This document shows, in pieces, positions 13,610-40,391 of a stretch of 40,656 bases of DNA (the first letter of the stretch is position 1; every line of letters starts with the position of its first letter). Source of the stretch: Chrysochromulina tobinii. Lineage: Eukaryota > Haptophyta > Prymnesiales > Chrysochromulinaceae. The notes under the pieces are model-generated. The model was not told where the DNA came from and ran no database searches. It saw only the letters and a list, made by a program, of their open reading frames with translations. The DNA is taken from contig JWZX01003128.1 in NCBI GenBank assembly GCA_001275005.1, positions 1 through 40,656 of the forward strand, in the 5' to 3' direction. The translations under genes and the position numbers were made by a program.

Positions 13610-15223
13610 ATGTCACTCCCACCTGCGGCACCTGTGCCTCCATCGCCGCTGCCCGACAACCTCGCCACACGCAACTTCCCCTCCGCGGGCGCGGATGCCG
13701 AAGAGAGCTTTGACGCTGCCCTCGACGAGTACGTCAAGTTGAAGCCGCACTTGCAGCACGGATACGATCTCCTGACCGACAGGCTCGCCGCACTTTCGAC
13801 TGATGAGAAGAGGGCCGTGTACGACACATTTGCCGAGCTCAAAGCGCACAACTCACAGCATCCGCTCGGGGGTCCACAGCACCTCGAACAGAAGTTCTGC
13901 ACGTTGCTCTTCGGCGCGAGTCCATCGACCCAGGAGGCGGAGGCACTCGCCTTTGCGAAGGGTGCTTGCAAGGAGAGCACGCTCGCCCAGAGCGAAGAGG
14001 CGGCAAAGGAGCGAGTTCTCGACGCAGCCGCAAAGGAGGAGGCGCATGAGGAGGCGCTGTGCACCATCTGTTTCGACGTGCCGCGGAACGTGCGCTTCCG
14101 ACCATGCCATCACTCGACCATGTGCGACGGCTGCGTGCTGAAGTTGATCGCCCGGTCGGAAAACCGCAAGCTCATCTGCCTGACGTGCCGCACGCCGGTC
14201 GAGCGCCTGTGCCGCGAAGGTAGCGCTGACGTGGACGGCGCTGGGTCAGCAGTTACAGATTCAGCCGATGGCGCGCCGTTGAAGCCCGTACGCAAGCCAA
14301 CCTTCGAGCCGCCGCGTGAACTGCCGTTGAAGCCCATTCGCAGGCCAACGTTCGAGCCGCCGCAAGAATTGCCGTTGAAGCCAGTTCGCATGGCAACGTT
14401 TGATCAATCGTCAACCGTAGACGGCCTGCCCGTCGACGCGTTCATCACGTCGCTCAAGAGCATCCCGACCCTGCGCGAAGATGCAGAAAAGGCTGATGAG
14501 GCGTGGAATGTGGAAGTCGACCTCACCGAAGCGGTATGCGAAGACGACCTCTGATGACCTCTGATGACCTCTGATGACCACTGATGACCTCTGATGAGGC
14601 GTGGAACGTGGAAGTCGACCTCACCGAAGCGGTGTGCGAAGACGATCTCGAGGAGGCGAGATTTGGAGTGCCTGTGGAGTGCGACTGATGAGCCGTGATT
14701 GCCTCCCGATATGGCAGGTTGCGCGATGACGATCTTGAGGAGGCGAGAGCGCTGCGTGCCCGTGGCGCGTCCGTCACAAGCCCTAATGAGGAAGGCGAGC
14801 TGCCGTTGGTGCTCGCGTGCATAAATGGGAATCTCGAGATGGCGAGATGGCTCCGCTCCGAAGGCGCAGATGTGAGTGCCACTGACGAACCTCTGAGTGC
14901 CACTGACGAACCTCTGAGATGGCTCCGCACCGAAGACGCAGCTGTGAGCGCCACTGACGCCGAAGGCAACTGCCCCGCGCATGCTGCATGCATGTGCTCA
15001 CCACGGCGCTCGCTCTTCCCCACAGGTGAACGCCACCGATGCTGAAGGAAACTGCCCCGCGCATGCTGCATGCATGGCGGTTTCGTTGCCGTTATGCGAG
15101 TGGCTCAAGGCGGAAGGCGCGCGCTTTGACACAGTCGACTCATTCGGAGTCGGCTCGCTGCTCATGGCCATCGAGGGGCAATACGCTGATGAGGATGATG
15201 ATGATGACGACGAGGACGAGGAC

Positions 15224-15255
<32 letters not shown>

Positions 15256-18200
15256 GGACGAGGACGACGATGACGAGGACGACGACGAGGAGGACGTGGA
15301 CGAGAATGCACAGAATGGTGAAGGTATTCGGAACGAGGTAGCAGAGGACGATGAGGAGTTGCCTAATATGGACGATGATGCGATTGAGGCGAGGCGATTG
15401 AGGCGCGAGGCGCTGGCCGAGGCGACGGAGGCGAGGCGGGCTGCCCATGCGCGCCGTCTCGAGCGGCGCACCGCTCTCGAGGAATCCAAGCTTGCGCTCT
15501 GCCGCTGGCTCCTCGCCGAGGGAGTGCGTGTGAATGGTCGGGAGGGGGGTGTGAATGGTCAGGATGGGGGTGTGAATGATCAGGATGGGCAGTCTGCCAG
15601 ACAGCAGGAGAGCAACGGGAGCGTGGAGGGGCCTCGAGCGGTCAGCCGCTCGGGCCCTGACGACGGTTTGACGCCGTTGCACATGGCATGCGGGATGGGC
15701 TTTGTGCGCATGGCACAGGTGAGATGCGCACATGGCATCTGGGGGCATCTGATGGCATCTGAAGCACGTCGATGGCACGTGATGACATCTGATTGCGTCT
15801 GATTGCGTCTGAGTGCCTGCTCCTCGTGATGGCATCTGATTGCATATGATGGCATCTGATTGCATATGATTGCGTCTGAGTGCCTGCTCCTCGATCCAAC
15901 CCTGCCCCCAGCTGCTGCATGCAAGTGCTCACCACGGCGCCCGCTCTTCCCACAGCTGCTGCATGAGCATGGCGCTCCTCTCGATGCGATCGCGGAGGGC
16001 GATGGAGGCGCGACGCCCTTCCTAACAGCGTGTTCCAACGGCAAGCTCGAGATTCTGATCTGGCTCAAGCAGGCCGGCGCGAATCTCAAGGCGACGGGCG
16101 ACGAAGGGCAGGATGGTCTCTCGATTGCCGCGCGCGAAGGCTACCTCAAGGTGGTCAAGTGGCTGCATGAGGTGAGTGCCAATGAGTGCATACGAGTGCG
16201 GCTGATGGCGCTCTGATTACGCTCCGGTTGCGTCTCCGATTGCATGCAGGGGCTGATTGCGCTCTGATTACGCTCCGGTTGCGTCACCGATTGCATGCAG
16301 GAGGGAGGCCTCGATCTTGAGCTCACTGATTGCCGCTGATTGCATGCTGGAGGGAGGCCTCGATCTCGAGCTCACTGATTGCCGCTGATTGCATGCAGGA
16401 GGGAGGCCTCGATCTCGAGCTCACTGATTGCCGCTGATTGCATGCAGGAGGGAGGCCTCGATCTCGAGCACAAGGATGAGGACGGCCAGACTGCCGTGCA
16501 TGCGGCCGCTAGCGAGGGTGAAGTGAAGGTCCTCGAGTACTTGCATGCTCATGGCGCTTCCCTCACCCGCCCTGACGAGGACGGCGACACCCCCGTCCAC
16601 TTTGCATGCTCCAACGGTCAGCTGGAGGCGGCGAAGTGGCTGGTGGCGCACGGCGCGAGCCTGGTGGCGAGGAATGCGGCGGGGTACGCGCCACTGACTG
16701 CCTCTGATTGCCTCAGATTGCCACTGACTGCAATCAGAGGAATGCGGCGGGGTACGCGCCGGTCCATCTGATGCTCCTTGATGAGCACAGATGGCCTCGC
16801 TGATGACCTCTGATTGCCTCCCTCCTCAGGTACGCGCCGGTCCATCTGGTGCTCCTCGCGGATAGCGTCGAGAATGCCGCCTTGGATGGGATCGGCGACG
16901 ACGACGAGAGCGACGACGAAGACAGTGATGAGGATGATGACGACGATGAGGAGGAGGGGAGTGGCTCGGAGCAGCGCGCGCATCGTGCGCGCATGCGGCG
17001 CCTGACAGAGCTGATGCCTATGCTCGCATGGCTCTGTGAGCAGCCCGGTGTGAACGAGCTCACGTGCCGCCGCCAGCCCCCTCCTCCTCCTGGAGGCTGG
17101 CGGCTGATCCGCCGCCTGGCCGCTCTGGGCGAAGAGGCGCAGGCGGCTCGTTCACACCGGGGAGGCGATTCGTTCACACCGCGGGAGGCGCACGCGGCTC
17201 GTGATGCGGATGCGATGATGGCGGAGGTCACTCGCCTGGTCAGCTCCGCCATTGCCACCGCGGTAGCAGAGGGGGGAGAGGGGGAGGGGCTAGCCGACGC
17301 GATGGCCACGCTCAACATGAACAAGGGTACGCTCGAGGCGAGATTCGATGACGAGACTCTCGATGACGAAACTCTCAATACGCTCGAGGCGCAATTCGAT
17401 TAGCACTTGGAGCGCGCCGTGGCGCAAGGCAGGCTGAGTGAGGCCGAGGCCGATGCGATGACGGATCAGATCGCCTCCAAGCCTAACAACGCCGCGCGGT
17501 GCGAGGCGATGCGCCGAATCATAAAGGGGGAGATTGGGGAGATTGGGTTGAAGGGCGGGCAGGGGGGGGGCGAGGACGAGCCGAACCGGAGCGAGGGCGA
17601 CGCCCGGGATGACGACGGTGCCCGGCACGGCGCGCCCGAGCTTACGCTGCTCCAGTTTATGGAGGAGATTGACCGGGATCGTGCAGAGCATGCCAGCAAA
17701 GCGCCCGAGACGGCGCCCAATTGGTTCGGCCTCAACCGCCGCCGACCGCCGCCGCCGCCGCAGCAGCAGCAGCAGCAGCAGCAGCAGCCGCCGCAGCAGC
17801 CGCCGCCGCAGCCGCCGCAGCAGGCTGTGCTCGCCAAAGGCCCTTCGCCATTTGCGCGCCTTTTGCGTCTGGAGCCATCGGAGCGCGGGAAAGTCGTCGA
17901 CGCGCTCTCGTCACTGCCCACATGGGGTGGTGGCAACATAGAAGGTTTGACACTCGTCGCCGGCCGTTGGGAGCCGAGCTCGTTTAGCGGTGAGACGCTC
18001 GACGTGGCACTCTTCAACTCCGAGGTGCAATCGAAGACCTTGGTCGACTGATGACCTCTGATGATCCTTAATGACCCTTGATTGCGTCCCCCATCAGGTG
18101 CAATCGAAGACCTCGGTCGCGATGCTTCGCGTGCTCGATGATGACCTCCGATGATCCTTAATGACCCTTGATTGCATCCCCCATCAGGTGCAATCGAAGA

Positions 18201-19306
18201 CCTCGGTCGCGATGCTTCGCGTGCTCGATGATGACCTCTGATGATCCTTAATGACCCTTGATTGCGTCCCCCATCAGGTGCAATCGAAGACCTCGGTCGC
18301 GATGCTTCGCGTGCTCGAGGGCCACGCCGACGGCGTGTGCGCCGTGTCGAGCTGCACCGTCGGCGGGCGCGTGCTCGTGCTGAGCGGCTCGTATGACCAC
18401 ACGGTCAAGATGTGGGACGCGGCGGATGGAACGGAGCTCCGCGAGCTCGAGGGGCACACGGACGCTGTGCTTACCGTGGCGAGCTGCACCGTCGACGGGC
18501 GCGTGGTCGTGCTGAGCGGCTCGGTTGACCAGAAGGTGAAGATGTGGGACGCGGCGGACGGTACGGAGCTCCGCGTGTTCGAGGGGCACACGGACATCGT
18601 GTACGCCGTGACGAGCTGCACCGTCGACGGGCGCGTGGTCGTGCTCAGCGGCTCGGCCGACAAAACGGTGCGCATGTGGGACGCGGCGGACGGCAGGCAG
18701 CTTCGGGTGCTCGAGGGGCACACGGACGACGTCTTCGCCGTGACGAGCTGCACCGTAGAAGGGCGCGTGGTCGTGCTGAGCGGCTCGGAGGACCGCACGG
18801 TGCGAATGTGGGATGCGACGGACGGGACGGAGCTCAGAGTGTTCGAGGGGCACACGGACGCCGTATACTCCGTGGCGAGCTGCAACGTCGACGGGCGCGT
18901 GGTCGTGCTGAGCGGCTCGGTTGACAAGACGGTGCGTCTGTGGGACGCGGCGGACGGCAGGCAGCTTCGGGTGCTCGAGGGGCACACGGATGATGTGTGC
19001 GCCGTGACGAGCTGCTCTCTCGACGGGCGCGTGCTCGTGCTCAGTGCCTCGGACGACCGCACAGTACGCATGTGGGATGCGACGGAGGGGAGGTGTGAAG
19101 AGGGAGGTGTGAAGAGGGATGCGACGGATGGGACGGAGCTCAGCGTGCTCTGGGGACACCTACGCGACGTGAACGCCGTGGCGAGCTGCACCGTCGACGG
19201 GCGCACGCTCGTGCTAAGTGGTTCGTGGGACCACACGGTACGCATGTGGGACGTGGGACGCGCCGTCAACGTGGCGGCGGCGGCCGCCGTTGCCGCCGCC
19301 GAGTAG
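13610..19306 (+). CDS. RING-ankyrin-WD40 protein, putative E3 ubiquitin ligase
   Basis: Eight exons are inferred: 13610-14502, 14718-14871, 15026-15718, 15956-16171, 16448-16683, 16830-17337, 17404-18024, 18278-19306. All phases agree and give 1449 residues. A RING-HC finger lies at about 149-202 (CTICFDVP, PCHHSTMCDGC, ICLTCRTP). Three tandem PLKPxRxxTFEPP-type repeats follow. Ankyrin repeats run from about 300 to 740 (for example GELPLVLACINGNLEMARWL and VHAAASEGEVKVLEYLHAHG), interrupted by an Asp/Glu run at about 404-441. Residues 760-1110 are acidic and then Gln/Pro-rich. Seven WD40 units of about 42 residues (GHTDxVxxVxSC, LSGSxDxTVRMWD) at 1117-1440 make a full propeller. RING proteins recruit E2 enzymes; ankyrin and WD40 domains would select substrates. 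The weakest link is exon 1 to exon 2 (donor GTGGAA, giving ADEALRDDDLEEAR). If wrong, RING (stop at 14554) and ANK-WD40 are separate genes. Confidence 0.68.
14503..14717 (+). repeat. Intron with TGATGACCTC array and duplicated exon copy
   Basis: The intron holds five TGATGACCTC-type 10-mers (14550-14600), then a second copy of the preceding sequence (CTGATGAGGCGTGGAAYGTG at 14492 and again near 14590). That copy continues into GAAGACGATCTCGAGGAGGC, which mimics the next exon (GATGACGATCTTGAGGAGGC). Boundaries are the least certain of this gene. Confidence 0.55.
14872..15025 (+). repeat. Intron containing a copy of its own exon-exon junction
   Basis: Donor GTGAGT at 14872 and acceptor CCCCACAG ending at 15025. 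Intron bases about 14918-14993 read GAGATGGCTCCGCACCGAAG... then ...GTGAGCGCCACTGACGCCGA.... That is the end of the upstream exon joined directly to the start of the downstream exon. The intron ends with the dispersed module starting TGCATGCATGTGCTCACCAC. Confidence 0.8.
15187..15300 (+). repeat. Coding acidic repeat (Asp/Glu codons)
   Basis: A run of GAT/GAC/GAG codons encodes about 38 acidic residues inside the ankyrin region. It is probably a flexible linker that grew by slippage. A smaller acidic run lies at about 16892-16960. Confidence 0.9.
15719..15955 (+). repeat. Intron with GATGGCATCT/GATTGCATAT 10-bp array
   Basis: Donor GTGAGA at 15719 and acceptor TTCCCACAG at 15955. Bases 15745-15890 are 10-mers of the type GATGGCATCT and GATTGCGTCT. 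The 3' part is the dispersed module (TGCATGCAAGTGCTCACCAC at about 15917). CAGCTGCTGCATG precedes this module and is repeated at the exon start (15953). Confidence 0.8.
16172..16447 (+). repeat. Intron with four tandem 3' splice sites (49-bp units)
   Basis: Donor GTGAGT at 16172. A 49-bp unit holding CTGATTGC, TGCATGC(A/T)G and the exon start GAGGGAGGCCTCGATCTYGA occurs four times, with TGCATG near 16292, 16341, 16390 and 16439. Only the last copy keeps an open frame, so the acceptor is placed at 16447. One copy (about 16349) has lost the AG. Confidence 0.8.
16684..16829 (+). repeat. Intron with internal copy of the spliced junction
   Basis: Donor and downstream exon both begin GTACGCGCC. 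Inside, near 16738-16788, lies AATGCGGCGGGGTACGCGCC followed by GGTCCATCTG. This is the upstream exon end fused to the downstream exon start. Ten-base CTGATTGCCT-like repeats fill the rest. Confidence 0.8.
17338..17403 (+). other. 66-bp GC-AG intron (inferred)
   Basis: An in-frame TAG at 17401 would stop the protein, yet the same reading frame continues with sensible sequence. Removing 17338-17403 (GAG|GCGAGA ... GATTAG|CAC) keeps frame and gives GTLEHLERAVAQGRLSEAEA, a good helix. The alternatives are a true stop or a nonsense mutation. Confidence 0.55.
18025..18277 (+). repeat. Intron with three 90-bp units, each with a 3' splice site
   Basis: Donor GTGCAA at 18025. A 90-bp unit ends CCCCCATCAG followed by GTGCAATCGAAGACCTCGGT and TTCGCGTGCTCGA. 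Its copies place GTGCAATCG at 18098, 18188 and 18278. Only the last copy continues into the WD40 frame. Each unit contains GATGACCTCT/GATGATCCTT 10-mers. Confidence 0.85.
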
Positions 19307-19800: not shown

Positions 19801-22397
19801 CTAGCTGCACAAGCGGCCGCAGCGTGGCTTGTACGCGTCGTACGCCTCCAAGGCCGCGGGGCGTACGTACTCGCTCACCACGGCGCTCTGGTCATCCGAA
19901 TCCGAGGCACGAGCGCCGTTTTGAGCAGCGGCTTGAGCGCCGTCACGAGCACCGCCCGCCTCGGGCGCTGTCACGGGCATGCCGACGAGGCAGTAGCGCC
20001 GCTCGTTGGCATGCAGGTGGACTTGGCAGTCCAACGGCCCGAGCAACGAGGTATAGTTGAGGATAGACGGGCCGAGGGCTCCCTTAATCACGCCCGCTCG
20101 GTGCCCCACAACGGTCGAGAGCAGCTGACGTGGCGTTGGTGCGTGCTCGTTGAAGACGGCGCACAGCGATCGCTCCCTGGCAATCAGTGGCAATCAGTGG
20201 CAATCAGTGGCAATCAGTGGCAATCAGTGGCAATCAGGCTCGTTGAAGACGGCGCACAGCGATCGCTCCCTGGCATGGGAGCACGAGCTCATGCCCCTTT
20301 CAAGACTGGCAATCAAGGGCAATCAAGGGAGATCAAGAGCAATCAAGGGCCTTCAAGGGCAATCAAGGGCAATCAAGGGAGATCGCACCTGGCATGGAGC
20401 ACGTGTGCACGTCCCTTCAAGACTGGGGTGATACGCGGCTTGCGACCGCCATCGCCGCTGCTTTTACTGCCGCCGCCGCCGCCGCCGTCGCCGCTGCTGC
20501 TGCTCACTATGTTTTGGAACGCGGCGCCATACGATGGATGGATCTTTCCAACTCGGAGGGAGCCATCGAGGCCCCTCGAGATGCGATCTCCCACCGAGAT
20601 GCGATCTCCCTTCGGCAGCTCGTCCAGCGCGAGCTTCTCGGCGAGATGGGCGCGCAGCTCGGCGAGGTGAAGTGTCTTCTGATCGTCGGCACCCACACCC
20701 TGCGGCCAGCAGAGGCATACAGCGGCCTTCAGCGGTCAGCTGTCGTCAGCAGTCAACTGTGGCAACCAGCGATCCTCCGAGCTCCTCCGAGCTCCTCCGA
20801 GCTCCTCCGAGCTCCTCCGAGCTCCTCCGAGCTCCTCCGAGCTCCTCCGAGCTCCTCCGAGACCCTTCTCCGAGCTCCTCCGAGCTCCTTCTCCGAGCTC
20901 CTTCTCCGAGCTCCTCCGAGCTCCTCCGAGACCCTTCTCCGAGCTCCTCCGAGCTCCTCCGAGCTCCTCCGAGCTCCTCCGAGCTCCTTCTCCGAGCTCC
21001 TCCGAGATCCTTCTCCGAGCTTCTCCGAGCTCCTCCTTCTCCAAGGCAATCACAGGGCACACCTGGCGCATCGAGAGCAGCAGCCAGTCGCGCATGAGCG
21101 CTGCGCTGGGCGCGGACCATCGCACAACCAAGTTGAAGTTGTGAGGGTACATCGTCTCCGTCAACACGTTCTGGGAGGCATGCGCGATATGCAAGCCCCA
21201 CAGCTGGCTACGAAGGGCGGCGTCGAGGAACTTCGACGCAGCACCCGGCGTGCAGCTCACCTGCCATCAGACGCAAGCAGAAGCCATCAGCAGCTGGATT
21301 GCGCTTGATTGCGATGGATTACTCTTGATCGCAGAGGCCATCAGCAGCTCGCCACGTTCGAGTCGAGCGCCCAGGTGAGTGCAATCAAGAGCAATCAAAC
21401 GCACTCCACTGCAATCAAGAGCAATCCATTGCAATCCATTGCAATCAAGCGCACTCCAGTGCAATCAAGAGCAATCCATGCAGCTCACCACGTTCGAGTC
21501 GAGCGCCCACGTGATATGATATGGAGATTGGGCGAGATAGTAGAGGCGCGTGAGCCACTGCCGAGGGACCTTGTCGCTCCGGTTCTGATCGTTCTCGCCC
21601 GCAAAGAGAAGGTCGGCGCGTGGCATGATGTGCGTCGTGAAGATGCGCCGATCGACCGTCTCATTGTTCGTGACGATAGCGATGGGCAAGGTGGGGTTGT
21701 GCTCGCGGAATGAGGCGGCAGCGTACTGCGCCTCGCGCACGAAGTGCTGCAGCGTCTTGCGCCCGCCGTACGCGAAGAGCAGCAGCCCGGCGCCCGACTT
21801 GGCCGACTCGCCCTCGACCGCCCACGACAGCGGTGTGACACGGCGAGGTCGGTGCACCGGGAGCGCCGTGTCGGGGTCTGTCACCTCGGCGCTGCTGCTG
21901 CGGAGGCTCTTGCGCATGGTTGTAATGATGGTACGCTGCGCGTCGATGATTTTTTGCTGCATCTCCACCACGGCCAAGCTGTGCCCCAGTGTCCGACGCT
22001 GTGCGTCCGCGGTCTCCAGCTGCTTCTGACGCGCAGTGATGCTCGAGGACAAGTTGCTCTCCATCGTGGGAAGCTCCTTTTGCAACTCCTCATCATCTGA
22101 GTCGAGATTGCGCAGCCAGCTCCGCAGCGCCGTTCTCGCACGCAAGACCTCCTCTCGCACAGCACCGCGCAATAGCACCATCGACGGCGTGTCTGCGGCC
22201 TCCACGGCGCCATCTCGCACATCGCCTCGTCGGCGGGCCGACGCCACAGCTGCCGCAATCGATTCACCGCTGTACGGGACGGCTGCGATGCGGGGCGGCA
22301 GACCACTCGAGTCCTGCAGCTGCGCGTTCATGAGCACGACGAACATCACGGCGACGCACAGCAGCGCGATGAAGGCTTTTCGCATCGTGTCCGTCAT
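19801..22397 (-). CDS. Type II membrane glycosyltransferase-like protein
   Basis: Four minus-strand exons, 22397-21489, 21260-21063, 20699-20389 and 20176-19801, all in phase (597 residues). A short cytoplasmic tail is followed by one transmembrane anchor (KAFIALLCVAVMFVVLMNA, about residues 7-25). A helical stem with Gln/Leu/Arg comes next (about 70-165). The lumenal part then has GLLLFAYGGRKTLQHFVREA, PIAIVTNNETVD and ITWALDSNVVSCTPGA. The last resembles the Asp-x-Asp region of nucleotide-diphospho-sugar transferases, although the second Asp is absent here (Asp-Ser-Asn). Later come HASQNVLTETMYPHNFNLVV and, in exon 4, a final domain with LNYTSLLGPLDCQVHLHANE. This architecture fits a Golgi glycosyltransferase; donor and acceptor are unknown. 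The family was not securely identified, so treat the function as a fold-level guess. Confidence 0.62.
20177..20388 (-). repeat. Intron 3 of the glycosyltransferase gene: CAATCAGTGG and CAATCAAGGG arrays
   Basis: Two 10-bp arrays, AATCAGTGGC at 20181-20236 and AATCAAGGGC at 20310-20380. Between them lies a second copy of both flanking exon ends (CTTGAAAGG...CATGCCAG|GGAGCGATCGCTGTGCGCC on the sense strand). Exon phase 2 is conserved across it. Confidence 0.8.
20700..21062 (-). repeat. Intron 2 of the glycosyltransferase gene: GAGCTCCTCC array
   Basis: Donor GTGTGC at 21062 and acceptor GGCCGCAG at 20700, minus strand. From 20772 to 21040 it is a dense 10-bp array of GAGCTCCTCC with GAGACCCTTCTCC-type variants. 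It is open in several frames by chance, because 10-bp repeats without stops read through. Splicing gives LLLSMRQGVGADDQ. Confidence 0.75.
21261..21488 (-). repeat. Intron 1 of the glycosyltransferase gene: CAATCAAGAG array
   Basis: Intron start and downstream exon start share GTGAGCTGCA. The array of CAATCAAGAG/CAATCCATTG 10-mers spans 21378-21480. A copy of the upstream exon end (GGGCGCTCGACTCGAACGTG on the sense strand) sits inside the intron near 21352-21373. Confidence 0.85.
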
Positions 22398-22728: not shown

Positions 22729-24631
22729 ATGTCGTTCGGCGCGTCTTCGAAGGACAAGCAATTGCAGGCAAACTTCGAAGCGGTGGTCGAGTTACTACGC
22801 GAAAGCGAGACCGAGCGTGAGAAGCTCAAGGCGGAGCTCAAGGCGATTCGCAAGGAGCAGGCGGAGGCCGAGAAGCGGTGGGCATCGGCGACCGATGCCT
22901 TCGAGGAGCAGCTGGCGGAGAGCGAGCAACGCGAGAGCGAGCGGCACGCCGCGCTCACAGTGGCGCTAAAGGAGGCGCAGCAGGCCGCGGCAGATTTCCA
23001 GGATCGTGCCGAAGGAGCCGAGGAGCAGCTCGTGGCCGAGGCGGCGCGCGCGTCAAACGCGGAGGATGAGTGCGCTCGCCTGTCGGCGGCCGTCGAGGCG
23101 CTCCAGCAGCAGCAGCAGAGCGCGATGGCGGCGGCCGTGGCGGACAAGGAGCGAGAGCGCGCGGCGCTCGAAACGGCGCTCAAAGAGCTTCGGGCGGAGC
23201 TGGCGACGGTGGCCGCCGCTGCGAAGGATGAGGCGGAGGCAGCAGCCGCACGTGAGCGTACACTGAGCGAGGAGCTTGAGACGGCGCGTCAGCAGGCGAA
23301 TGAGCTCGAGGCGAAGGCGACGCTGGCCAAGGCCTCGGTCGCCGACCGGGTCGCCGCGGCCGAGAAGGCCGAGAACAGCCTGCGCGACGAGATGCGAAAG
23401 ACTGTCGGGGTCGAGCGGCAGCGCGTAGCGGGCATGCTGTACAAGGAGGCGCTCCAGACCCACACTCTCGAGGAGCAGGCACGTTGATTGCCACTGATGA
23501 CCTGCCTTGCATGCAAGTGCTCACCACAGCGCGTTCGGCTCTCGAGGAGCAGGCGCGCCAGCTCGAGGAGCTCAACGCCGAGCTCGCCGACACGCGCGAG
23601 TCGTTGCGCGAGAGCCAGGAAGAGGTGGCCGAGGCCAAATCGCTCGCCGCCGAGCTGCTCACTGCGCTGCATGCAAGTGCTCACCACGACGCCCTCTCCT
23701 CTCCCCACAGGTGGCCGAGGCCAAATCGCTCGCCGCCGAGCTGCTCACTGCGCTGCATGCAAGTGCTCACCACGACGCCCTCTCCTCTCCCCACAGGTGG
23801 CCGAGGCCAAATCGCTCGCCGATCGACGAACGTCCGAGCTTGCACGCGTCCAGGTGATTGCATGCTGGCACGTGAATACATGCTGGCGCGTGAATGCATG
23901 CTGACCGAACGTCCGTGCTTGCACGCGTCCAGGTGCAGCTGACCGCGCTGCAAGACTCGCAGCATAAGAGCTTGCGTTCGGTCGAGCACCTCGACGACCA
24001 GGTGCGCATGCATGCATGCTGATTGCCCACCCCATTTGCATGCTGACTACCCCTCTGCGCGCCTCGACGACCAGCTCGCCGATGAGCAGCAGAGGCGCGA
24101 GCAGGCGGAGGAGCAGCTCAAGACGGTGCAGGTGACGGCGGAGGCTGACGAACCTGAAAGCCTCCCTCTTGGTGCCTCTGACGAACCTCTGAGTGCCTCT
24201 TGACGAACCTCCTGGTGCCTCTTGACGAACCTCGGAGTGCCTCTTGACGAACCTCCTGGTGCCTCTTGACGAACCTCGGAGTGCCGCGGGTGGCTTCTCT
24301 CTGATCTGAGAGCCTCCCTCATTGACGAACCTCTGAGTGCCTCCCTCATCAGGCGACGCTGAGCACGATCGAGAAGAAGCATGCAAGGGAGTTACGCATT
24401 GCCTCAGGCGCGAGCCGCCTCAAGACCACGGCGGCAGCGTGCCAGACGGAGAGGGGCCATCTGAACCCGGAGAAGGCGCTTCAGACCGACTGGTGCGCCG
24501 TGCACATGCCGCTGCCCTCTCCGAGCATGCATGTGCTCACTACGGCGCCCTCGCCTCCCCACAGGTGCGCCGTGCACATGCCGCTGCCCACGCTGCCGCA
24601 CGGTGGGTGCATCCTTCCCAAGATACCCTAG
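22729..24631 (+). CDS. Long coiled-coil protein
   Basis: Seven exons are inferred: 22729-23482, 23530-23624, 23797-23853, 23933-24001, 24075-24131, 24353-24492, 24565-24631 (412 residues). From about residue 15 to 340 it is almost continuous heptad-like Glu/Ala/Leu/Arg coil (for example ERAALETALKELRAELATVA and DEQQRREQAEEQL). The C-terminal 45 residues are different, with Cys and Pro (TDWCAVHMPLPTLPHGG, ending CILPKIP). No enzymatic domain is seen; a cytoskeletal or Golgi tether role would be a guess. The start is the ATG giving MSFGASSKDKQLQ. The exon 1-2 junction is the least certain (donor GTTGAT, 47-bp intron). The 86-bp duplicated block at 23625-23796 could instead encode extra 16-residue exons if a GC donor inside the block (GCAAGT) is used. 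Confidence 0.62.
23625..23796 (+). repeat. Two identical 86-bp units, each exon copy plus intron module
   Basis: Units at 23625-23710 and 23711-23796 appear identical. Each starts GTGGCCGAGGCCAAATCGCT, which is also the start of the next exon at 23797. Each ends with the module TGCATGCAAGTGCTCACCAC...CCCCACAG. The identity suggests a very recent duplication. Confidence 0.9.
24132..24352 (+). repeat. Intron with CCTCTTGACGAACCTC repeats
   Basis: Donor GTGACG at 24132 and acceptor CTCATCAG at 24352. It holds about seven copies of a roughly 21-bp unit with TTGACGAACCTCNGAGTGCC. The same sequence (TGACGAACCTCTGAGTGCC) also occurs in the ankyrin-gene intron near 14882. Confidence 0.75.
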
Positions 24632-26847: not shown

Positions 26848-28116
26848 ATGGCCGACACCTGGCGCGTGCCAGGCAACTGGATGAAACATGTTGAGATGGT
26901 CAACGGGCGTGGCGAGTTCATTTCCAAGTGGCTCGGCCGAAATGGCTTGGACGAGGCCCCGCCTTCGCAAGTGTCTCGGCACTGGTTTGGCAAGGACCTC
27001 GGACTCGAACGGCAAATGGCGCTGCAGTATGGACGCCGCGAAACCGATCTCAAAGATTGCACGCCTGGGGCTACTCGGCACGCCCCTGACGCGGGCCAGG
27101 TCGCCCATTCCGGCGTGGTCGGGGCGCACCGTCACATCCATGGTGACCCACAGCAGGTGCGCCTTCCTGCCGACCGCGTCCTGTACGGTGACTACGTGGC
27201 CCACCCGGTGCCGAGCGAGTGCGGCCGCTTGCCCGCCCAGCTGCCATGTGTAAACGACAGCTTCTACCTTGGGGGTGGCGCTCAAGGGTCGCACGCCCTA
27301 CCACGCAACCCGTCGAATTCGGACTGGCGAAAAGGTGCCGACGCCGACACAGGTTGGATGTTTGGGCCTCGCGGCGGGGCCAAGGCACCCACGTCGCCTC
27401 CGCGTCGTGTCGAAGAGCGGCCGGCCGAGTGGGGGTCGATTAGGAAGCAGCCCGTGCCGGGTGAACTTGGCCTGCGGCTCACGGACATCCACGAGGGCAC
27501 ACTGGCGAGGGCACGAGCAGACCCGCCCGACCCTGCGCCGGGCAAATTCCGACGCGTGGCCTCGGACGTCACCTTGGATCGGACGCCCTATGCCCAGAGG
27601 ATCGCTGAGTTCTCTCGCGCTGAAGCCGCAGCGGCTGCCCTGGGCAGTGGCGCACGAGGCGGCAAGTGGCTGCGGCACATGAACTCGAGCGTCGATAGTA
27701 TTGTCTTCGGCCGTGATCTTGACGGATCGGACGATCCGATCGAGCTCGTGCGGCGCGGTGAGAGCAGTGGGCCCCCAGCGCCGTCTATGAGCGGCCCGAT
27801 AGATCGCTCGACAGCTGGCAAGTCGAGTGAAAACTTTGGCCGCGAAAACTTGAAACAGATCGCCCTCGCCGACTATGAGCTCGCACAACGCGACCGCGAC
27901 CGCGGCCACTGGATCCACAGTCGCTTCAGCGCCGACTACCGGCACACGCCCACGGACATCCACACGACGTCGTACGATGAGACCAAATTTCGGCAGCAGG
28001 ATGCCATCGAAAAGTACGGCGAAGACGTCATCATGATCGATGGGCGGCCAAAGTATGGTCGCAGGAGGTCAGCGGCGCTCTTGCCGGCGGACCGCGACTT
28101 GCTTCCGCTGTACTGA
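26848..28116 (+). CDS. Hypothetical protein with internal short motifs
   Basis: A 422-residue protein in one exon, starting at ATG 26848 (MADTWRVPGNWMKH). No domain is recognised. It is hydrophilic, rich in Arg/Asp/Gly/Pro, with no signal or membrane segment and little predicted long helix. Noticeable segments are SSVDSIVFGRDLDGS and SSENFGRENLKQIALADYEL, two Phe-Gly-Arg motifs about 130 nt apart. There are also several His/Tyr-rich stretches (SRFSADYRHTPTDIHTTSYD). Such extended, aromatic-anchor sequences occur in microtubule or flagellar associated proteins, but that is speculation. Continuous codon structure across 1.27 kb and a clean ATG support a real gene. It is tail-to-tail with the cyclic-nucleotide-binding gene, 94 bases apart. 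Confidence 0.65.
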   Translation: MADTWRVPGNWMKHVEMVNGRGEFISKWLGRNGLDEAPPSQVSRHWFGKDLGLERQMALQYGRRETDLKDCTPGATRHAPDAGQVAHSGVVGAHRHIHGDPQQVRLPADRVLYGDYVAHPVPSECGRLPAQLPCVNDSFYLGGGAQGSHALPRNPSNSDWRKGADADTGWMFGPRGGAKAPTSPPRRVEERPAEWGSIRKQPVPGELGLRLTDIHEGTLARARADPPDPAPGKFRRVASDVTLDRTPYAQRIAEFSRAEAAAAALGSGARGGKWLRHMNSSVDSIVFGRDLDGSDDPIELVRRGESSGPPAPSMSGPIDRSTAGKSSENFGRENLKQIALADYELAQRDRDRGHWIHSRFSADYRHTPTDIHTTSYDETKFRQQDAIEKYGEDVIMIDGRPKYGRRRSAALLPADRDLLPLY

Positions 28117-28210: not shown

Positions 28211-30900
28211 TCACGTCAACGGCGGCTCTGCGACAATGGTAGCCGCGCCTCGGACGACATCCGCATCAGCCACCTCCTTGCCCGAGCTCGAGCTCACGGT
28301 CATGCCGAGCTCAGCGCGGGTCGAGCAGTCGCCGCCGAGCCGGCCCATTTCGAGCTGGGCCTTGCTGCAATCGTACAGCCGGTGCGCTACCCGCATCTTT
28401 GGGCTCAGATCGGGCGGCTCGAGCAGCACCGTCTGCGGTGCGGGCGGTTCGAAGCGCTTCGCGGCGGAGGGGGGCAGCTCGGCAGGCGGCGCGGGCGGCT
28501 TGAGGCGCCGAGGGCGCCCAGTTCGGGGATCCAAGGTGGCGGCTTGCTCAAGGATGGCCGAGAGCATCAGAGCCCCTGCAGCACGCCGATGAGGGGTGTC
28601 ATCAAACGGTAATCAGAGGCAATCAGAGGGCGCGATCCCCTCACCTGGCACATGAACCACCACGGACGGGAGAGTCGACGTCGCTGCTTCGAGTCGCTCT
28701 ACGGGCCTGATGCCGAGCGCCGTCTCGCCAAGGGCCGCGAGGCTCTCCAGCCCGAAGACGCACGGCGGCTTGAGGTCACGCCCGGTTTCGTCACCCCCCG
28801 CCTGCAGCCGCACCGCGCCCGAGAGCAGCACGAACAAGCCGTCGGGGCGCGCACCCTCGTGATAGAAGGCATGGTACCGGTCGCGCCGCTGTAGCCGGCC
28901 GAGTCGAGAGAGGCGCACCTGAGGAGGGAGGCAATCAGCATGCACTCAGCACGCAATCAGCATGCACTCATCACGCAATCGTCATGCACTCAGCATGCAC
29001 TCAGCATGCACTCAGCATGCAGTCATCATGCCACCCCGATGCATTAGCATGCCGCGTACCAAGGTCTCGTCGGGCAGAAGGTCGAGCGCCTTACAGCCGC
29101 GCAGTGCCCGGGACGCCGCGTCAGCAAGTGGACAAATCCCCATATCGACGCCACGGCTCCCACCTGATGAGGGATGCAATCAACATGCACTCAGCACGCA
29201 ATCAGCATGCAATCCCCATATCGACGCCACGGCTCCCACCAGAGACGAAAGCGTCCGCAATGCGCCGCCCGAGCGAAGAAGGTGCACCGAGCTTGCGCGC
29301 CAGCAGAACTGCCTGTAGAGTCGCCTCCTCCTCTCGCTCACTCTCGCTGAGTACCTGATGAGGGAGGCAATGACGGGTGTCCTCAGCGGCAATCAGCGGC
29401 AATCAGCGGCAATCAGCGGCAATCAGAGGCAATCAGATGCAATCAGATGCAATCAGATGCAATCAGATGCAATCAGCTAAGTACCCGCTCCGTCGGGCGG
29501 CCGTAGAGCCGCCTACTGGCCATCACGCCGTGCAGAGGAGTGTCAGATCTCGCGAGATTTAGAGCTGCCTGGACCTCTCGCCGAGATCGGATCTGCGCCA
29601 GCCGCGCCTCTGCCACCTCGACCAGATTCGTCCGATTCGTCAGATTCGTCAGATTCGTACCCGGCGACACGTGCCCAAGCACCTCCGCCAGCATCGTCTC
29701 GGCCGCATCGAGCTCCGCCCTGCTCAGCCGCCCCTCTGCAAACGCGACAGCCGCCGCCGCCGCACGCCCCGAGGCCGCCCTCAAAGTGGCTTCGTCGGTT
29801 TCGTCAGTTTCGTCCACCGATCGCCCCGAGGCCGCCCTCAAACTGCTGTTCACAGGCACGCTGTTCACAGGCATGCTGTCCACAGTCCCACGCGGCTCCA
29901 CCGCCAGTGAACGGTGGTTCACAGCCAGTGAACGGTGGTTCACAGCCACACGCGGCTCGACTGCGGGCGAGCGCTCCGCCAGTCGCCAATCGGCGAGTGC
30001 TCGCCAATCGACGTCGGTGGCCACTGCATCCACGTCGGCATCTGCCTCTGCGTCCGCCTCCGCGTCTGCGTCTGCGTCCGCGTCTGCGTCTGCGTCTGCA
30101 TCCGCGTCCGTGTCGGTCAACACCTTGCTCGTGGCCGACGATCTCCTCTCGATCTCGATCTCCTCTGATCTCCTCTCTCGCGGAGCCCCACCCGTATTGC
30201 GTGCCACTGCCGCAGTGGCCGAAGCGGGCCGCCGCGACCCTGAGCCCTCCGCTCGCCGCTGGGCGCCCAACGAGGCCGACCACGGCCGCGCCGCCCCCCC
30301 CGAAGCGCGAGCAGGTCGCGCGGCGGCAGACTTGACTTGACTTGACTTGACTTGACTTGACTTGACTTGAACTGCGGCGGCGGACGGGGCTGCCGCTGCT
30401 GGCGCAGCACGATGCGGTGGCGGCGGAGGAACCACCCACGGTGCGGATGCGTTTGCGCCAGGGAACAAGACGGATTGCAAGAGGGTGGTCGGACGAATGG
30501 CCGGTGCTGACGCGACTCGACTAAGCGCCGCCACATCCATTGGCCCAGGTCCGGCATGCACAGCGTAGAGGGGGCTCTGGCCGGCCGCTTTGCCCCGTGA
30601 CACGTGTTGCGAGTGCACAAAGAGCCGACGAGCTGCGATGAGTGCGGCGGCGGACGGATGTGCACCAGGATCTGGCTTCCACAGGACTCTACCTTCAAAG
30701 TGCTCGAAGGTTCTGGTCGCGCGCAGCTTCTCCGTGTTCATGCTTTGTTGCCGATTTGCCGACCGCTCCGGTGGTGGCGTTGTCGCAGACTTGTGCGGCC
30801 TGCTGTCGAATGGAGCGATCGACAACAGAGAGCTGGCCGATTGGGCTGCGCGCGGATTCCCAGGCAATCTTGCGAGTCGTGGCTGCACGTGGGCATCCAT
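28211..30900 (-). CDS. Protein with C-terminal cyclic nucleotide-binding-like domain
   Basis: Five minus-strand exons, 30900-29485, 29354-29240, 29163-29060, 28918-28645, 28575-28211. All phases agree (about 757 residues; the frame is open upstream of 30900 without ATG). The N-terminal 470 residues are low-complexity: Ala/Pro/Arg, QVKSS repeats, a run of Asp-Ala dipeptides, and Asn-Leu-Thr repeats (NLTNLTNRTNLVEVAEARLA). Across exons 2-4 the spliced protein gives LLPDETLVRLSRLGRLQRRD, then YHAFYHEGARPDGLFVLLSG and AVRLQAGGDE. This matches the start of a cNMP-binding beta-roll (Leu pattern, Gly-x-x-x-Asp-Gly-Leu-Phe-Val, Ser-Gly-Ala-Val). The later phosphate-binding cassette is degenerate (FGLESLAALGE, without the usual Arg-Ala), so ligand binding is doubtful. 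No kinase or channel domain is attached. Confidence 0.68.
28576..28644 (-). other. Intron 4 of the cNMP-domain gene
   Basis: 69 bp, donor GTGAGG at 28644 and acceptor GTGCTGCAG at 28576. It has two CTGATTGCCT/CTGATTACCG 10-mers in the sense orientation. Splicing gives VVVHVPGALMLSAIL. Confidence 0.75.
28919..29059 (-). repeat. Intron 3 of the cNMP-domain gene with 11-bp array
   Basis: Donor GTACGC and downstream exon start GTGCGC match at five of six bases. The array is 11-bp units of the type AATCAGCATGC/ACTCAGCATGC (28930-29030). On the sense strand each reads GCATGCTGAGT or GCATGCTGATT. Confidence 0.85.
29164..29239 (-). repeat. Intron 2 of the cNMP-domain gene with 28-bp exon duplication
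   Basis: A 76-bp intron whose first 28 bases (GTGGGAGCCGTGGCGTCGAT and 8 more) are identical to the first 28 bases of the next exon. The remainder is GCATGCTGATTGCGTGCTGA-type repeats and CCCTCATCAG. A perfect repeat this long implies recent origin. Confidence 0.9.
29355..29484 (-). repeat. Intron 1 of the cNMP-domain gene with CAATCAGAGG/CAATCAGATG array
   Basis: Ten 10-bp units span 29390-29475. The intron begins GTACTTAGC and the next exon begins GTACTCAGC. Splicing in phase 0 gives RPTERVLSESEREEEA. Confidence 0.9.
30039..30112 (-). repeat. Coding hexanucleotide repeat (Asp-Ala)n
   Basis: TCTGCG/TCCGCC hexamers encode alternating Asp-Ala and Glu-Ala dipeptides in the low-complexity part of the cNMP-domain protein. 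Confidence 0.85.
30331..30370 (-). repeat. Coding pentanucleotide repeat CTTGA x8
   Basis: Eight perfect CTTGA units. Since 5 and 3 share no factor, the array encodes a 5-residue period (VKSSQ) on the minus strand. Shorter runs of the same pentamer occur at about 31000 and 33080-33100. Confidence 0.9.
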
Positions 30901-34364: not shown

Positions 34365-36382
34365 ATGGTCGTGCACGACAAACTCTCGAGCGCGCTGCGC
34401 ACCTTTGCGACTGCCAACCCGTTCTCCACGCTCGAGGAGAGCGGCCGCGTGCTCTCCACGCTGCTCAGCAACCTGGCGCGTGAGGACACGCCCAAGTTTC
34501 GCCGCGTCAACCTGACGAATGCCAAGATCAAGGCCGCCGTGCTCGGCGCGGCGGGCGCCCGCGAGGTGCTCATCGCCGCGGGCTTTTCGGCTGTCGAGGA
34601 CGGTTCGGCGCTCGAGATGACCGGCGACGGCGCCTCGGCGCGCGCCGCCGCCGCCTCCGCTGCGCTCGACGAGGCGCTCGTCGCCGCCGGTGGCCCGTTC
34701 GCGCTTCGGCAGCGCCTGGCGCACGAGGCGCGCTGCTGCTGTGGCGGCGCCCCCGGCGAGGCTGGCACGGTGCTCACCGGCGGCATGGACAACCTGGTCA
34801 AGGTCTGGTCAACCGCGCTGCCGCTGCAGGGCGCCGCAGAGCCCTTGCGAGTCTTCGTCGCGCATGAGAATGCGCGCGGCGCGGCGGGCGTGCTGGCGCT
34901 GTGCTCGCTGCCAGGCGGCGCGGTCGCCTCGGCGGGCCGCGACGGCAAGGTCGTGGTGTGGGATGCCTCCGACGTGGCGGGAGGCGGCGGCGCGGGCGGC
35001 GCAGTGCCGCTCGCAATCCTGATCACTCACGGAGAGCCGCCAGGAAAGGAAGTCTCGAACAAGCAGGTGGTGACTTGCCTGGCGGGAGAAGGCGGAGATG
35101 CGGGCGGCGCGCTGTGCTCCGGCGGCTGGGATCAGACCGTCCGGGTCTGGCATCCGCTCCCCGGAGGAGCAACCCCGACCCCGCGGCGCTGCTCCATGAG
35201 CAAGCCGTGCTCGCCATTTGCGTGCTGCCGGACGGTCGACTGCTCAGCGGCGCGGGCGATGGCACCGTTGGCGTGTGGCGCCGGCCCGTCTCGAGCGCCG
35301 TCTCGAGCGCCGGTTTCGTCAAGGAGGCGGAGTGCAGGGTGCAGACGGTCGTCAGAGGCCTTGCGCCGTACGCCGGCGGCTTCGCGCAGGCACGCTGATG
35401 ACCTCTGATGACCACTGATTACCACTGATGACCTCTGATGACCACTGATGACCTCTGATTACCGCCGTACGCCGACGGCTTCGCGCAGGTCGGCAACGAC
35501 GGCGTCCTCCGTCTCTGGGCGCTCGACACGGCGCTCGTAGCTGGCGCGCCGCGTCTCGCGTGCAGGTGCGCTGATGACCTCTGATGACCACTGATGACCT
35601 ATGATGACCTATGATGACCTCTAATGACCACTGATGACCATTGATGACCACTGATGACCACTGATGACCTCTAATGTGCAGCACGCCCTCGGTCGGCTGC
35701 TACCTCTTCGCCGTCGTCAACTGCACGCCCGACGGCGCCGCCCGATACGGCGCGCCCGAGCAGCTCGCCGTCGGCGGTGATGATGGCTGCGTGCGCATCT
35801 GGCGCGCTGCCGGCCAGGGCGCGGCGATGCCCAATACGGCGCCGGGCGCGATGCCGACGGCCCTCGAGTGCATGCAGACCGTGCGCGTCCCGGGCGAGGT
35901 CTTCGGGCTATGCCTCCTATCCGACGGCGACCTGATCGCGGCGTGCGATGCCGCCGGAGCCGTCGTCTTCACGCGGGCTCCCGGCCGCGCCGCACCACCG
36001 GCCGCCCAAAAATCACTCGCCACCGAGGCGGACGCCTTCGCGACGCCCGCGACGAGCGCCGCCAGCGCCGCTGGCGCCGCTGGCGCCGCTGGTGCCGCTG
36101 GCGGCGGCAACTTGGCGCGTCCGAAACAGATGGCCGCGGATGGCAAGCAATATGACTTCGTCTTTCCGGTCGAGATGGGTGGCGGCAAGGCACAGATCTT
36201 TTGGAACGTCGGCGACGACATACGGACCGTCGCCGCACAGGTACGCTGATTACCACTGATCACCTCTGATACCACACTGATTACCCTCCGGACCGGCCCC
36301 GCACAGTTTGCTCTGCGGAACGGCGTCGGTCTCGATGAGCTCTCCTCCATTGAAGAGTTCATGCGCATGGCGGCTGGCGGCA

Positions 36383-36421
<39 letters not shown>

Positions 36422-37201: not shown

Positions 37202-38000
37202 CGTCTAGATGCCCCTGTGGGCGCCACAGAGCCCTGCTGTATCTCTTTGGCCGCGTGTGCTGGGGCGCAGGGACCGCGCGCGAGTCGCGCGCATTCATGG
37301 TAGCGGAGGTTTATAGTTTTGTCGTGTTGCGCGCGGCTAGGTTACGTTACTCGACTCAGGGTGCCGGGAGACGGCCGGGCAAACTTCCGGGCACGGGTTC
37401 GACGATTAAAAAGTTGAGAACCCCGCTCCCCGGGGGACGGTAGCGCCCGTGAACGGTCGTGAGCGAGCCGGACCGGACGGTACGCCGGCTCTACGCAACG
37501 CGAACACGGCGTGTCGCTATCGGCTTCTGTATTGAGTATTCGTTTTGATTATTTCTTGAATTGACTCCTGTGTCACGCGGGGGCGTCTACGGGTCTTACG
37601 GTCCGCGGGCGCTCGGGACGGGATTTACGGGAAGCGCTCCCGGCAATTGGGTATTGGCTCCCGCCCTCCCGGGCGCCCGGACCACAGGGCGCCCCCCTCG
37701 ACCCGGGCAGGAGGTAGAATTGCAATACCATCATGCCCCATGGTAGCTGATCCTGATCGGTTTGCCCCAATCTATGCCACGCGTCACAAATGAATGCATG
37801 AGATCCCCGATGCCGGCTGCTGCATGCTGCGCCAGAGCTTTTCCCGTGGTGCGCAATCCAGTTCCGCCAAGAGTTCGCCCATCACAGCGCCCGCCCATCA
37901 CAGCTCCCACCCATCACAGCGCCAGCCCACCACAGCGCCTGCCCACCACGGCGCTCGTCCATCACACGCCCTAGTGGCGTTTAGGTAGGGGGCTCCCTAA
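37202..38000. other. Gene-free region between convergent genes
   Basis: About 800 bases. Short GC-rich inverted or repeated pieces occur at 37610-37700 (CCGGGCGC, GGGCGCC). A loose repeat of CCCATCACAGCGCC/CCCACCACGGCGCT lies at 37875-37972. TTAGGTAGGGGGCT is repeated at 37980 and 38001, overlapping the kinase stop. No gene is seen. Confidence 0.5.
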
Positions 38001-40391
38001 TTAGGTAGGGGGCTTCCACTCAGTGTCGGCGAAGGGCGCCGTCCCGGCAGGGATGCGCATCTGCGCGTCAAAGAGTCGCAGAGCGGCCCTCCACTTGCCC
38101 TCGCGGTTGGTCGTACCCTGCGGCGTCGCGAGATCGACCGTCTCCACCTTAATCATCCGAGATCATACGAGATCATACGAGATCATACGAGATCATCCGA
38201 GGCAATCAGGGCACACCTTCGGCGTCGCGAGATCGACCGTCTCCACCTTGATCATCGTCTCGTTGTTGTCGGCGGCCAGCTTGTTGAGAGTGATGTACCT
38301 GAAGAAGGAGGCAGCGTCAGATGCGATCAGCCGCCGTCATCAGCAGTCGTCACTAGCAGAATGTGTGGTCATCAGATGTACCCGTCGGTGCCATAGCCCT
38401 CCATCGGAGCGAGGTGTAGCGTGCCGCCAAAGTACTTTGCGTATAGTCGCGCGAGCGGCAGCCCCAGCCCCACCTGAGATGATGAGATGCGATGAGATGC
38501 AATTAGATACGATGAGATGCGATGAGATGCGATGAGATGCGGCAGCCCCAGCCCTACCTTCCAATTCGCACCGCCGACCTTAATCATCCGAGAACATCCG
38601 AGATAATCCGAGATCATCCGAGGCAATCAGGGCACACCTTCCAATTCGCATCGCCCACCGAGACCGGAAGGACTTTTCGGTCAGTCGCCACCTTCCAATT
38701 ACGGTCCGTGTGCATGCTGCGATAGGACCAGATGTCCGCAAGACCCGAGCGCGGCATTCCGCCAGCCTGGTCCGCCACTTTGATGGTCACATTCGCGTCG
38801 CTCACCTGAGGATGGAGGCCAACCGATCCCAAATTAGGTCATCATCGGGCGAGATCAGGCGAGATCCACCGCTCACCGCCACGATGACGCGGATGGGGAC
38901 CGATTCCAAATCGACAGTGCGCCCAGAGCCAGATTGTGACGAAACGTGACGAAGCGTCGCTTTGGAGGCGTTCGAGAGCAGCTCGCCCACTACGAAGCGC
39001 AGGTGGCTCGGCACGTACCTGATGGCGGACGCAATCAGATGCCATCAGAGCTCATCAGAGCTCATCAGAGCTCATCGGAGCTCATCGGAGCTCATCAGAG
39101 CTCATCAAGCGCAGGCGAATCGGTGCTTACGTGAAGCTATGCGAAGGGTCGCCGTGGACGTGAATGGGAGGCAATCAAGGAGTTTCGTCAAGATGCGTAC
39201 GTGAAGCTATGCGAAGGGTCGCCGTGAACATGAATGGGAGGCGCGGCCCCAAACTGGGCACGAGTCCATTCACTCATCTCGTCGGCGAGCTCCTTGCACA
39301 CGGCCACAGGCGAGCACGCGAGCTCGATGATACCAGCGTACCTGATGAAGGAGGCCATCAGGGAGGCCATCAGAGGGCATCAAAGGCCATCCATGGCCAT
39401 CAGAGCTCATCAGAGCTCATCAGAGCTCATCAGAGGCCATCAGAGCTCATCAGAGGCCATCGGCGCACCCCTCCCTTGGCTGCCGCGCGCCCAAATTAGG
39501 GAGGCAATCAGAGCTCATCAGAGGCCATCGGCGCACCCCTCCCGCGGCTGCCGCGCGCCCAAAAAATGCTCCGTCAGAAACCGGAGACCCAATCTGGCCG
39601 AGAAGATCGCGTCCAGATGCCGGTCGATCGCGAGCTTCAGGGCCGCGTCGAGCCCCGACGAGCCGTTGGCCTCTGATGAGCTTTGATTAAGTGACTCCTC
39701 CACACGGAGGTGTGAAGGAGACTCCTCGGTGTGAAGCGACGTGAGCGCCTCGGCGAACGTGCGTCGCGTCTCGCCCTCCTACTCCGCAACACCGCAGGAG
39801 CTCCACCAATCAGTGTGGCCATCGGACGCAATCAGGCGCAATCAAGGGGAAGACCTCCACCTGCTCCTCAAAGCGCAGGCGCAAGCGGCCCGCGAACTCC
39901 AGCTCGTCGCCCGCGTTGGTCATGCGCGGCTGCTCAAGGAGAAAGAGGAGGCGCTGCCAGTAGGCCGTCGTGAGCAGCTGCACCGCGGGCTGGCGTGCCA
40001 GCTCCGAGGGCACCGCCAGGAGCAGAGAGAGGATGTGCGCTCTGCGTGCCAGGAGCTCACGCCGCACAAACTTTGCGTTGAGCAGCGCTTGCTCCGCCGA
40101 GCGAGCCTGCATCTCGGCCGCACGTTGCAGTGTGCGGATGGACACCGGTGTGGGCGGCAGGAGCTCTGTGAGCCTCGCGATGGTCTCGCGACACGGCGGT
40201 GCATGGCGCATCGCAAGCAGCTGGCTCGTGAGCTCGGGCAGCGCCAAAGTGCTGCTGCTGCCGCCGCTGCTGCTGCCGAGCTGCCGCACGGCGGCACGGG
40301 CCGAGCGATGGCAGTCGAGACTGCTGCTGCCGAGCTGTGCTACACGGGCCGTACGATGGGGAGCCAAGAGCAAGGTGCGCACGGTAGCCAT
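38001..40391 (-). CDS. Mitochondrial pyruvate/branched-chain 2-oxoacid dehydrogenase kinase
   Basis: Eight minus-strand exons: 40391-39861, 39778-39537, 39341-39201, 39018-38877, 38805-38638, 38473-38382, 38298-38217, 38117-38001; all in phase, 504 residues. The N-terminal helical domain is PDK/BCKDK-like ([40 protein letters not shown]). The GHKL ATP-binding part has [20 protein letters not shown] (N-box, Glu and Asn), [20 protein letters not shown] (G1 box), [17 protein letters not shown] (G2 box) and [10 protein letters not shown]. The end EWKPPT is family-like. The enzyme phosphorylates and so inactivates the E1 subunit of a mitochondrial 2-oxoacid dehydrogenase; PDK and BCKDK cannot be told apart here. 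The first 50 residues ([20 protein letters not shown]) are Arg/Ser/Leu-rich, fitting a mitochondrial presequence. Exon 5 may end at 38692 instead of 38638, and the exon 1-2 junction is less certain. Confidence 0.85.
38118..38216 (-). repeat. Kinase intron 7: GAGATCATAC array and duplicated exon end
   Basis: Four GAGATCATAC 10-mers. The intron's 3' end repeats the upstream exon end on the sense strand (AAGGTGGAGACGGTCGATCT...ACGCCG(A/C)AG), so about 36 bp are duplicated. Confidence 0.85.
38299..38381 (-). other. Kinase intron 6
   Basis: 83 bp. The intron and the downstream exon both begin GTACATC. CTGATGAC and CTGATCGC motifs lie on the sense strand. Splicing in phase 2 gives [16 protein letters not shown]. 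Confidence 0.88.
38474..38637 (-). repeat. Kinase intron 5: two 10-bp arrays and alternative donors
   Basis: GATGAGATGC units at 38480-38538 and CATCCGAGA-type units at 38585-38625. GAATTGGAAGGT occurs three times in and before this intron (ends near 38692, 38638 and 38562). Two of these are in-phase donors (GTGGCG, GTGTGC). Confidence 0.75.
38806..38876 (-). other. Kinase intron 4
   Basis: 71 bp. The intron and the downstream exon both begin GTGAGCG. Sense-strand 10-mers of GATCTCGCCT type. Phase 0 splicing gives [18 protein letters not shown]. Confidence 0.88.
39019..39200 (-). repeat. Kinase intron 3: CATCAGAGCT array and duplicated exon end
   Basis: About seven CATCAGAGCT/CATCGGAGCT units (39045-39110). 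A second copy of the upstream exon end (CCTCCCATTCAYGTYCACGG ... AGCTTCACGTA) lies at about 39120-39175 with its own GTAAGC donor. Confidence 0.85.
39342..39536 (-). repeat. Kinase intron 2: CATCAGAGCT/CATCAGAGGC array
   Basis: 10-bp units at 39355-39465 and again at 39505-39530. A copy of the exon 2 end (TTTGGGCGCGCGGCAGCC, then AGGGGTGCGCC) lies inside at about 39470-39496. Donor GTGCGC, downstream exon GTACGC. Confidence 0.85.

Follow-up and report, generated by a model that had tools for sequence, protein, structure and literature searches.

Introner-like elements and long exon duplications at the borders of introns in Chrysochromulina tobinii

The locus and its introns

The window considered here is a stretch of 40,656 nucleotides of the haptophyte Chrysochromulina tobinii (contig JWZX01003128.1, or C1969, of assembly GCA_001275005.1, which comprises 53.15 megabases in 2,253 contigs); its GC content is 62.9%. 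Genes of the window, among them an ankyrin gene and a PLAA-like gene, are interrupted by short introns that contain members of dispersed element families, here called X, Y, and Z, and at which exon sequence from one border is copied at the opposite end of the intron. Two classes of intron can be distinguished: in class A the element appears to provide the acceptor and the duplicated exon the donor; in class B the element appears to provide the donor and the duplicate the acceptor. The predicted introns, and one element core, are listed below with coordinates, strand, and duplicate length in base pairs (bp).

14872..15025, + strand: class A intron of the ankyrin gene; acceptor from element Y; the exon start is copied at the 5' end and again, nested inside, from 14944
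14986..15005, + strand: Y core word within the preceding intron
15719..15955, + strand: intron seemingly lengthened by a Y insertion beside an older acceptor (about 15911), with CTGCTGCATG as a short duplicate (by eye)
16172..16447, + strand: intron with X-type units and repeated copies of the exon start; a paralogue lacks it
16684..16829, + strand: class A intron with X acceptor; duplicate GTACGCGCC; one further internal copy of the exon segment
18025..18277, + strand: class A intron (X); duplicate 22 bp; tandem reiteration of 73 + 90 + 90 bp
21261..21488, - strand: class A intron; duplicate 10 bp
23479..23552, + strand: class B intron; element Z with GC donor; exon-end duplicate of about 14-16 bp
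23625..23796, + strand: class A intron (Y), tandemly duplicated (86 + 86 bp)
23854..23932, + strand: class B intron; exon-end duplicate 27 bp
24002..24074, + strand: class B intron; exon-end duplicate 13 bp
24493..24564, + strand: class A intron (Y); duplicate 25 bp; TG, not AG, before the first copy
29164..29239, - strand: class A intron (X); duplicate 29 bp
35390..35488, + strand: class B intron (X) of the PLAA-like gene, with GC donor; exon-end duplicate 26 bp
36241..36306, + strand: class B intron (X); duplicate 18 bp; after splicing, the protein's match to Pfam PFU spans the junction
38118..38216, - strand: class B (or ambiguous) intron; duplicate 40 bp
38299..38381, - strand: class A intron; duplicate 7 bp
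38806..38876, - strand: class A intron; duplicate 7 bp

Exon sequence copied at intron borders

A sequence-only reading of the window had proposed that many of its introns are bounded by copied exon sequence, and had named twelve of them. For each intron, the bases around the donor were matched in register with those around the acceptor, and the donor of one intron was paired with the acceptor of another as a control (132 mismatched pairs). All twelve coordinate pairs hold, and every one of the twelve introns scores above all controls (lowest true score 7, top control score 6). Seven have the start of the downstream exon copied at the intron's 5' end (aligned lengths 9, 22, 10, 25, 29, 7, and 7), and five have the end of the upstream exon copied at the 3' end (26, 18, 27, 13, and 40). 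The same introns give a range of 7-40 bp, wider than the 6-28 bp of the initial reading. One of them, 35390-35488, has a GC donor; the boundaries of another, 38118-38216, are ambiguous because its 41-bp repeat also holds AAG/GT, permitting a second splicing. Among all short direct repeats of the window, many of which are coding repeats or minisatellites, GT..AG shows no excess (45 of 162, either strand; other pairs of dinucleotides are more frequent). AG/GT lies at the edges of 25 of 395 repeats vs 8 of 395 in reversed sequence, some of the 25 being plainly ordinary repeats.

Dispersed element families

Similar introns occur at many unrelated places, the flanks differing among the fetched loci with the exception of three repeated loci. 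Element Y, of about 40 bp, consists of GCATGCANGTGCTCACNACG, then a variable stretch, and in most cases CCCCACAG; its 20-mer has 979 exact copies in the genome (487 + 492). The bodies of X are made of units of about 10 bp, such as CTGATTGCC or CTGATGACC, often with the end ATTGCCTCCCTCATCAG, which has 1,054 exact copies (516 + 538). Element Z starts at the donor, typically as GTACGTTGATTGCCACTGATGACCTGCCTTGCATGCAAGTGCTCACCACAG, and 40 exact copies of its 34-mer are present (19 + 21). The reversed word gives no copies in any of the three cases. Y and Z have in common the core TGCATGCAAGTGCTCACCACRGCGC, within which CTCAC may be a branch site, judging by its resemblance to the consensus. The elements measure only about 40-65 bp, and no terminal inverted repeats were noticed by eye in Y or Z, for which no systematic search was made. 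Donor-carrying elements recurrently have GC donors (GCACGTTGAT and GCACGCTGAT; window positions 35390 and 23479, and loci L123, L124, and L135), and one locus is an X-Y chimera.

The window also holds long minisatellites of 10-bp units (CTCCGAGCTC and TAGCACTCAT), at 20781-21040 and from 6538, which have about the period of the X intron units. The tandem units CCCAYCACRGCGCC at 37866-37970, apparently intergenic, are by eye similar to the inner portion of the Y core.

Class A: acceptor from the element, donor from the duplicate

The X and Y elements of class A seem, from their arrangement, to supply a branch-site-like core and a CAG acceptor, with the donor taken from duplicated exon. Fifty Y loci were fetched, of which 45 were scored (four have no acceptor in range and one repeats another) against 900 mismatched pairs, and 30 X loci were scored against 600. 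A copy of the exon start above the 99% control level is present at 27 of 45 Y loci and 15 of 30 X loci (33 and 16, respectively, at the 95% level). Duplicates are 14-47 bp long for Y (median 26) and 12-33 bp for X (median 22), with a median identity between copies of 95-96%; the copies are identical at seven Y and six X loci. The range of duplicate lengths had previously been read as a sign of introns of different ages, but the 13 duplicates with identical copies already span 17-34 bp; identity between the copies is a better clock than length.

If the left edge is not fixed, the 98% control level is exceeded at 33 of 45 Y loci, and 12 of 30 X loci exceed their own control, which is inflated by repeats. 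In 19 of the 33 Y loci the edge falls 0-3 bases before the AG end, in three it is further upstream, and in 11 it is 2-10 bases downstream, although some of these 11 look like early mismatches. Among the 42 duplicate-bearing X and Y loci, AG precedes the first copy in 18 (vs 23 of 347 coding GT sites) and G in 33 (vs 92 of 347), an enrichment indicating that donor-like contexts are favored, by targeting or by selection. In the remaining 24 loci no AG precedes the first copy, and the acceptor AG is given by the element, not by the target. At its far edge, the sole peculiarity of the duplicate is an enrichment of G and C in the final two bases, which may reflect overlap with the GC that opens the Y core.

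Filler of up to 28 nucleotides, measured with earlier acceptor choices at L077, L080, and L098, separates the duplicate from the Y core; it has no clear relation to the continuation of the exon (mean score 6.0, vs 5.3 in controls). Insertion at existing acceptors had been suggested by wrong acceptors at the same three loci; with corrected ones, such an insertion is likely at 15911/15955 of the window and possible at L103 and L066. The finished introns 18025-18277 and 23625-23796 have been reiterated together with their exon copy, which gives alternative splice choices.

Class B: donor from the element, acceptor from the duplicate

Elements of class B (Z and donor-bearing X) would supply a GT or GC donor and a core, the acceptor apparently being taken from the duplicate. 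The donor-type X word CAGGTRCGCTGATKACC has 13 loci in the genome (11 fetched and two in the window), of which L113 and L114 share one sequence, leaving 12 distinct; eight of these carry a 15-27-bp copy of the exon end that outscores all 156 controls. Twenty Z loci were sampled and 15 scored, one being a repeat and four having no donor motif; three of the latter (L129, L130, and L139) look like class A by eye. An exon-end copy scores at least 10 in 13 of 15 Z loci. For comparison, the 210 controls have a 95% level of 7.5, and their three top scores are 9.5, 10.5, and 32; some of the loci are related to one another. With L123 set aside, as its match extends into element sequence, Z copies are 10-33 bp long, and some loci have no filler (e.g., 30 bp at L126). 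Donor-carrying copies have a constant 5' end and a variable 3' end.

Reading frame, orientation, and single-copy sites in a paralogue

The predicted junctions are in frame at 42 of 52 loci; with shifted acceptors the frame is kept in 173 of 511 controls for class B loci and 293 of 922 for X and Y loci. The Pfam PFU match is unbroken over the spliced junction of 36241..36306. The exon after the element is classified as coding in the element's sense at 40 of 45 Y and 21 of 30 X loci, and coding direction agrees when taken from both flanks at 38 of 45 and 23 of 30; of the 65 pieces on which the classifier was trained, it assigned 58 correctly. In the window, all six occurrences of the Y word and all 11 of the X end lie in gene regions on the gene strand (assigned by eye); among the shorter X units there is one exception, at 25963.

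Four intron sites of the window are single-copy in a paralogue with an open frame of 1172 amino acids; no close paralogue of the ankyrin gene was found beyond contig C1376 and the window. The pair C101 and C235 (L109 and L110) was considered as an intron polymorphism, but the larger difference in their shared part is a 72-bp minisatellite of six 12-bp units, not an intron. The two differ by four substitutions in 6,667 and represent uncollapsed alleles or assembly duplicates; C888 and C1294 (L113 and L114) also look alike over the stretch compared.

Origin of the introns

The families, the duplicates, their splice-site register, the agreement in frame, and the single-copy paralogue sites are apparent from sequence comparison. 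They are probably to be explained by introner-type insertion of dispersed elements, each bringing only half of the signals needed for splicing, into staggered breaks that are then filled in, the duplicate completing the set. A short element of this kind would insert in an exon and, in doing so, duplicate 7-47 bp of it; the duplicate would give the missing donor (class A) or acceptor (class B), and because the missing site is so supplied, splicing would restore the original messenger RNA. A staggered double-strand break, filled in, would leave a duplicate of variable length while repair captures or copies the element, with no transposase of fixed stagger; the branch site would lie within the core, and cleanly splicing insertions would be kept by selection. 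Donor-end pieces of existing introns may have given rise to class B, and acceptor-end pieces to class A.

Cut-and-paste transposases leave a short duplication of fixed length. Since duplicates here range over 7-47 bp (17-34 bp among identical pairs) instead of holding one such value, insertion at staggered breaks is favored; the filler, the X-Y chimera, and the nested and tandem repeats also fit break repair. A stronger form of this reading, put forward tentatively, is that half-introns multiply by break repair alone: a staggered exon break would be filled with a copied donor-end or acceptor-end piece of an intron, the filled overhang would give the other splice site, and repair with splicing would be enough, with no transposase, to produce introns by the thousand.

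Two considerations weigh against insertion at staggered breaks. Y and Z have recurrent inner ends, as expected of a mobile element, and a retroposition-type enzyme with variable stagger, although unlikely, deserves consideration. The elements would then be non-autonomous transposable elements (classic introners), moved for example by target-primed reverse transcription, and the duplicated target site would lend them one of the two splice sites; this alternative we regard as improbable but as the strongest of the rivals. High copy number, recurrent ends, and sense orientation agree with it, and retroposition of the non-long terminal repeat kind gives variable duplicates. However, donor-carrying copies vary at the 3' end, the reverse of 5' truncation, and the elements are very small and have no inverted repeats noticeable by eye.

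Half reverse splicing, in which an excised intron joins exonic DNA by one end and is copied with a staggered nick to leave a splice-site junction and a duplicate, is very unlikely. It would account for sense orientation, for the junction at the AG end or at most 3 bases upstream in 19 of 33 Y duplicates, and for the class B junction at the donor, though class B loci were chosen that way; but selection for intact messenger RNA would leave the same exactness, 11 of the 33 Y duplicates begin downstream of AG, and class B is awkward for reverse transcription.

The initial reading had offered two origins, tandem duplication around AG/GT and introner insertion with target-site duplication. The second is upheld by the dispersed families between the duplicates and by the single-copy paralogue sites; simple tandem duplication fails for most introns, as AG precedes the first copy in only 18 of 42 loci and the element brings the CAG. 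As a full account, plain tandem duplication of exon segments with AG/GT (the Rogers model) is less probable still, and at best a secondary process: the reiterated introns 18025-18277 and 23625-23796 and the higher frequency of AG before first copies than before coding GT sites are in its favor, but it leaves unexplained the non-local elements inside introns and the 24 first copies that no AG precedes. A chance or compositional artefact of a GC-rich, repeat-rich genome, or of wrong boundaries, fits the crude dinucleotide count without GT..AG excess but is contradicted for the group as a whole by the mismatched-pair, reversed-sequence, and frame controls, and can be given practically no weight.

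Comparison with known intron gains

In introners the missing splice site can be co-opted from the target duplication, with both polarities reported; one such family, from a metagenome assembly of Chrysochromulina sp., brings its own 5' splice site and has a duplication of 4 bp (Gozashti et al., 2022; PMC9860276). Co-option in both polarities, with one example from Chrysochromulina, is thus already in print. The elements described here are like those introners in being dispersed and intron-making and, as in a subset of introner families, in showing target-site duplication with splice-site co-option. The difference is that previously characterized families have duplications of 3-9 bp (PMC9860276), whereas those found here are variable (12-47 bp in X and Y loci and 7-40 bp in the twelve window introns, with no fixed value), and both polarities occur with a shared core in one genome.

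New introns of Daphnia pulex have been attributed to staggered double-strand breaks (PMC4202315); like those described here, they have the exon-end repeat at the opposite intron end and repeated bouts of duplication inside introns, but their repeats are 4-12 bp, whereas here longer repeats accompany an insert that belongs to a recurrent family. The introner elements of Amoebophrya (PMC7789003) likewise recur as introns and have direct repeats that span their boundaries; those repeats are of 3-5 nucleotides, with inverted repeats of 8-20 nucleotides and mostly non-canonical splice sites, in contrast to the long repeats and GT/GC-AG sites seen here. In introns made by tandem genomic duplication (PMC4974935) an exon copy also gives a splice site, but local duplication makes the intron; here a dispersed element gives one site, the intron is not wholly local, and AGGT in the duplicated segment is not the rule. 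Direct repeats of 4-30 bp (mean 11.4) have been reported at or near the borders of 213 introns, from a search over up to 80 bp around the borders (Rogers and Bendich, 2025; PMC11782384); the repeats considered here are in splice-site register and flank a dispersed element.

The literature searched, most of it by listing alone, showed no introner with such long duplications. As far as these searches show, the length and variability of the duplicates are new, as is the finding that half-elements of complementary type, sharing a core, occur together in one genome. The origin of new introns is an old open question; with both types of half-element, their shared core, and long exon copies of which some are still identical, insertion, co-option, and break repair become separable and testable in one organism, and doubt is cast on cut-and-paste transposition as the general engine of introners.

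Other features of the window

The PLAA-like gene has a change of reading frame in its first exon, at about 35,160-35,180, which is either a sequencing error or the mark of a broken copy; the gene was translated unmended. The gene at 26848-28116 has an open frame 422 codons long; its best relative among the collected proteins, at 95% identity, belongs to a nameless cluster of 82 member sequences.
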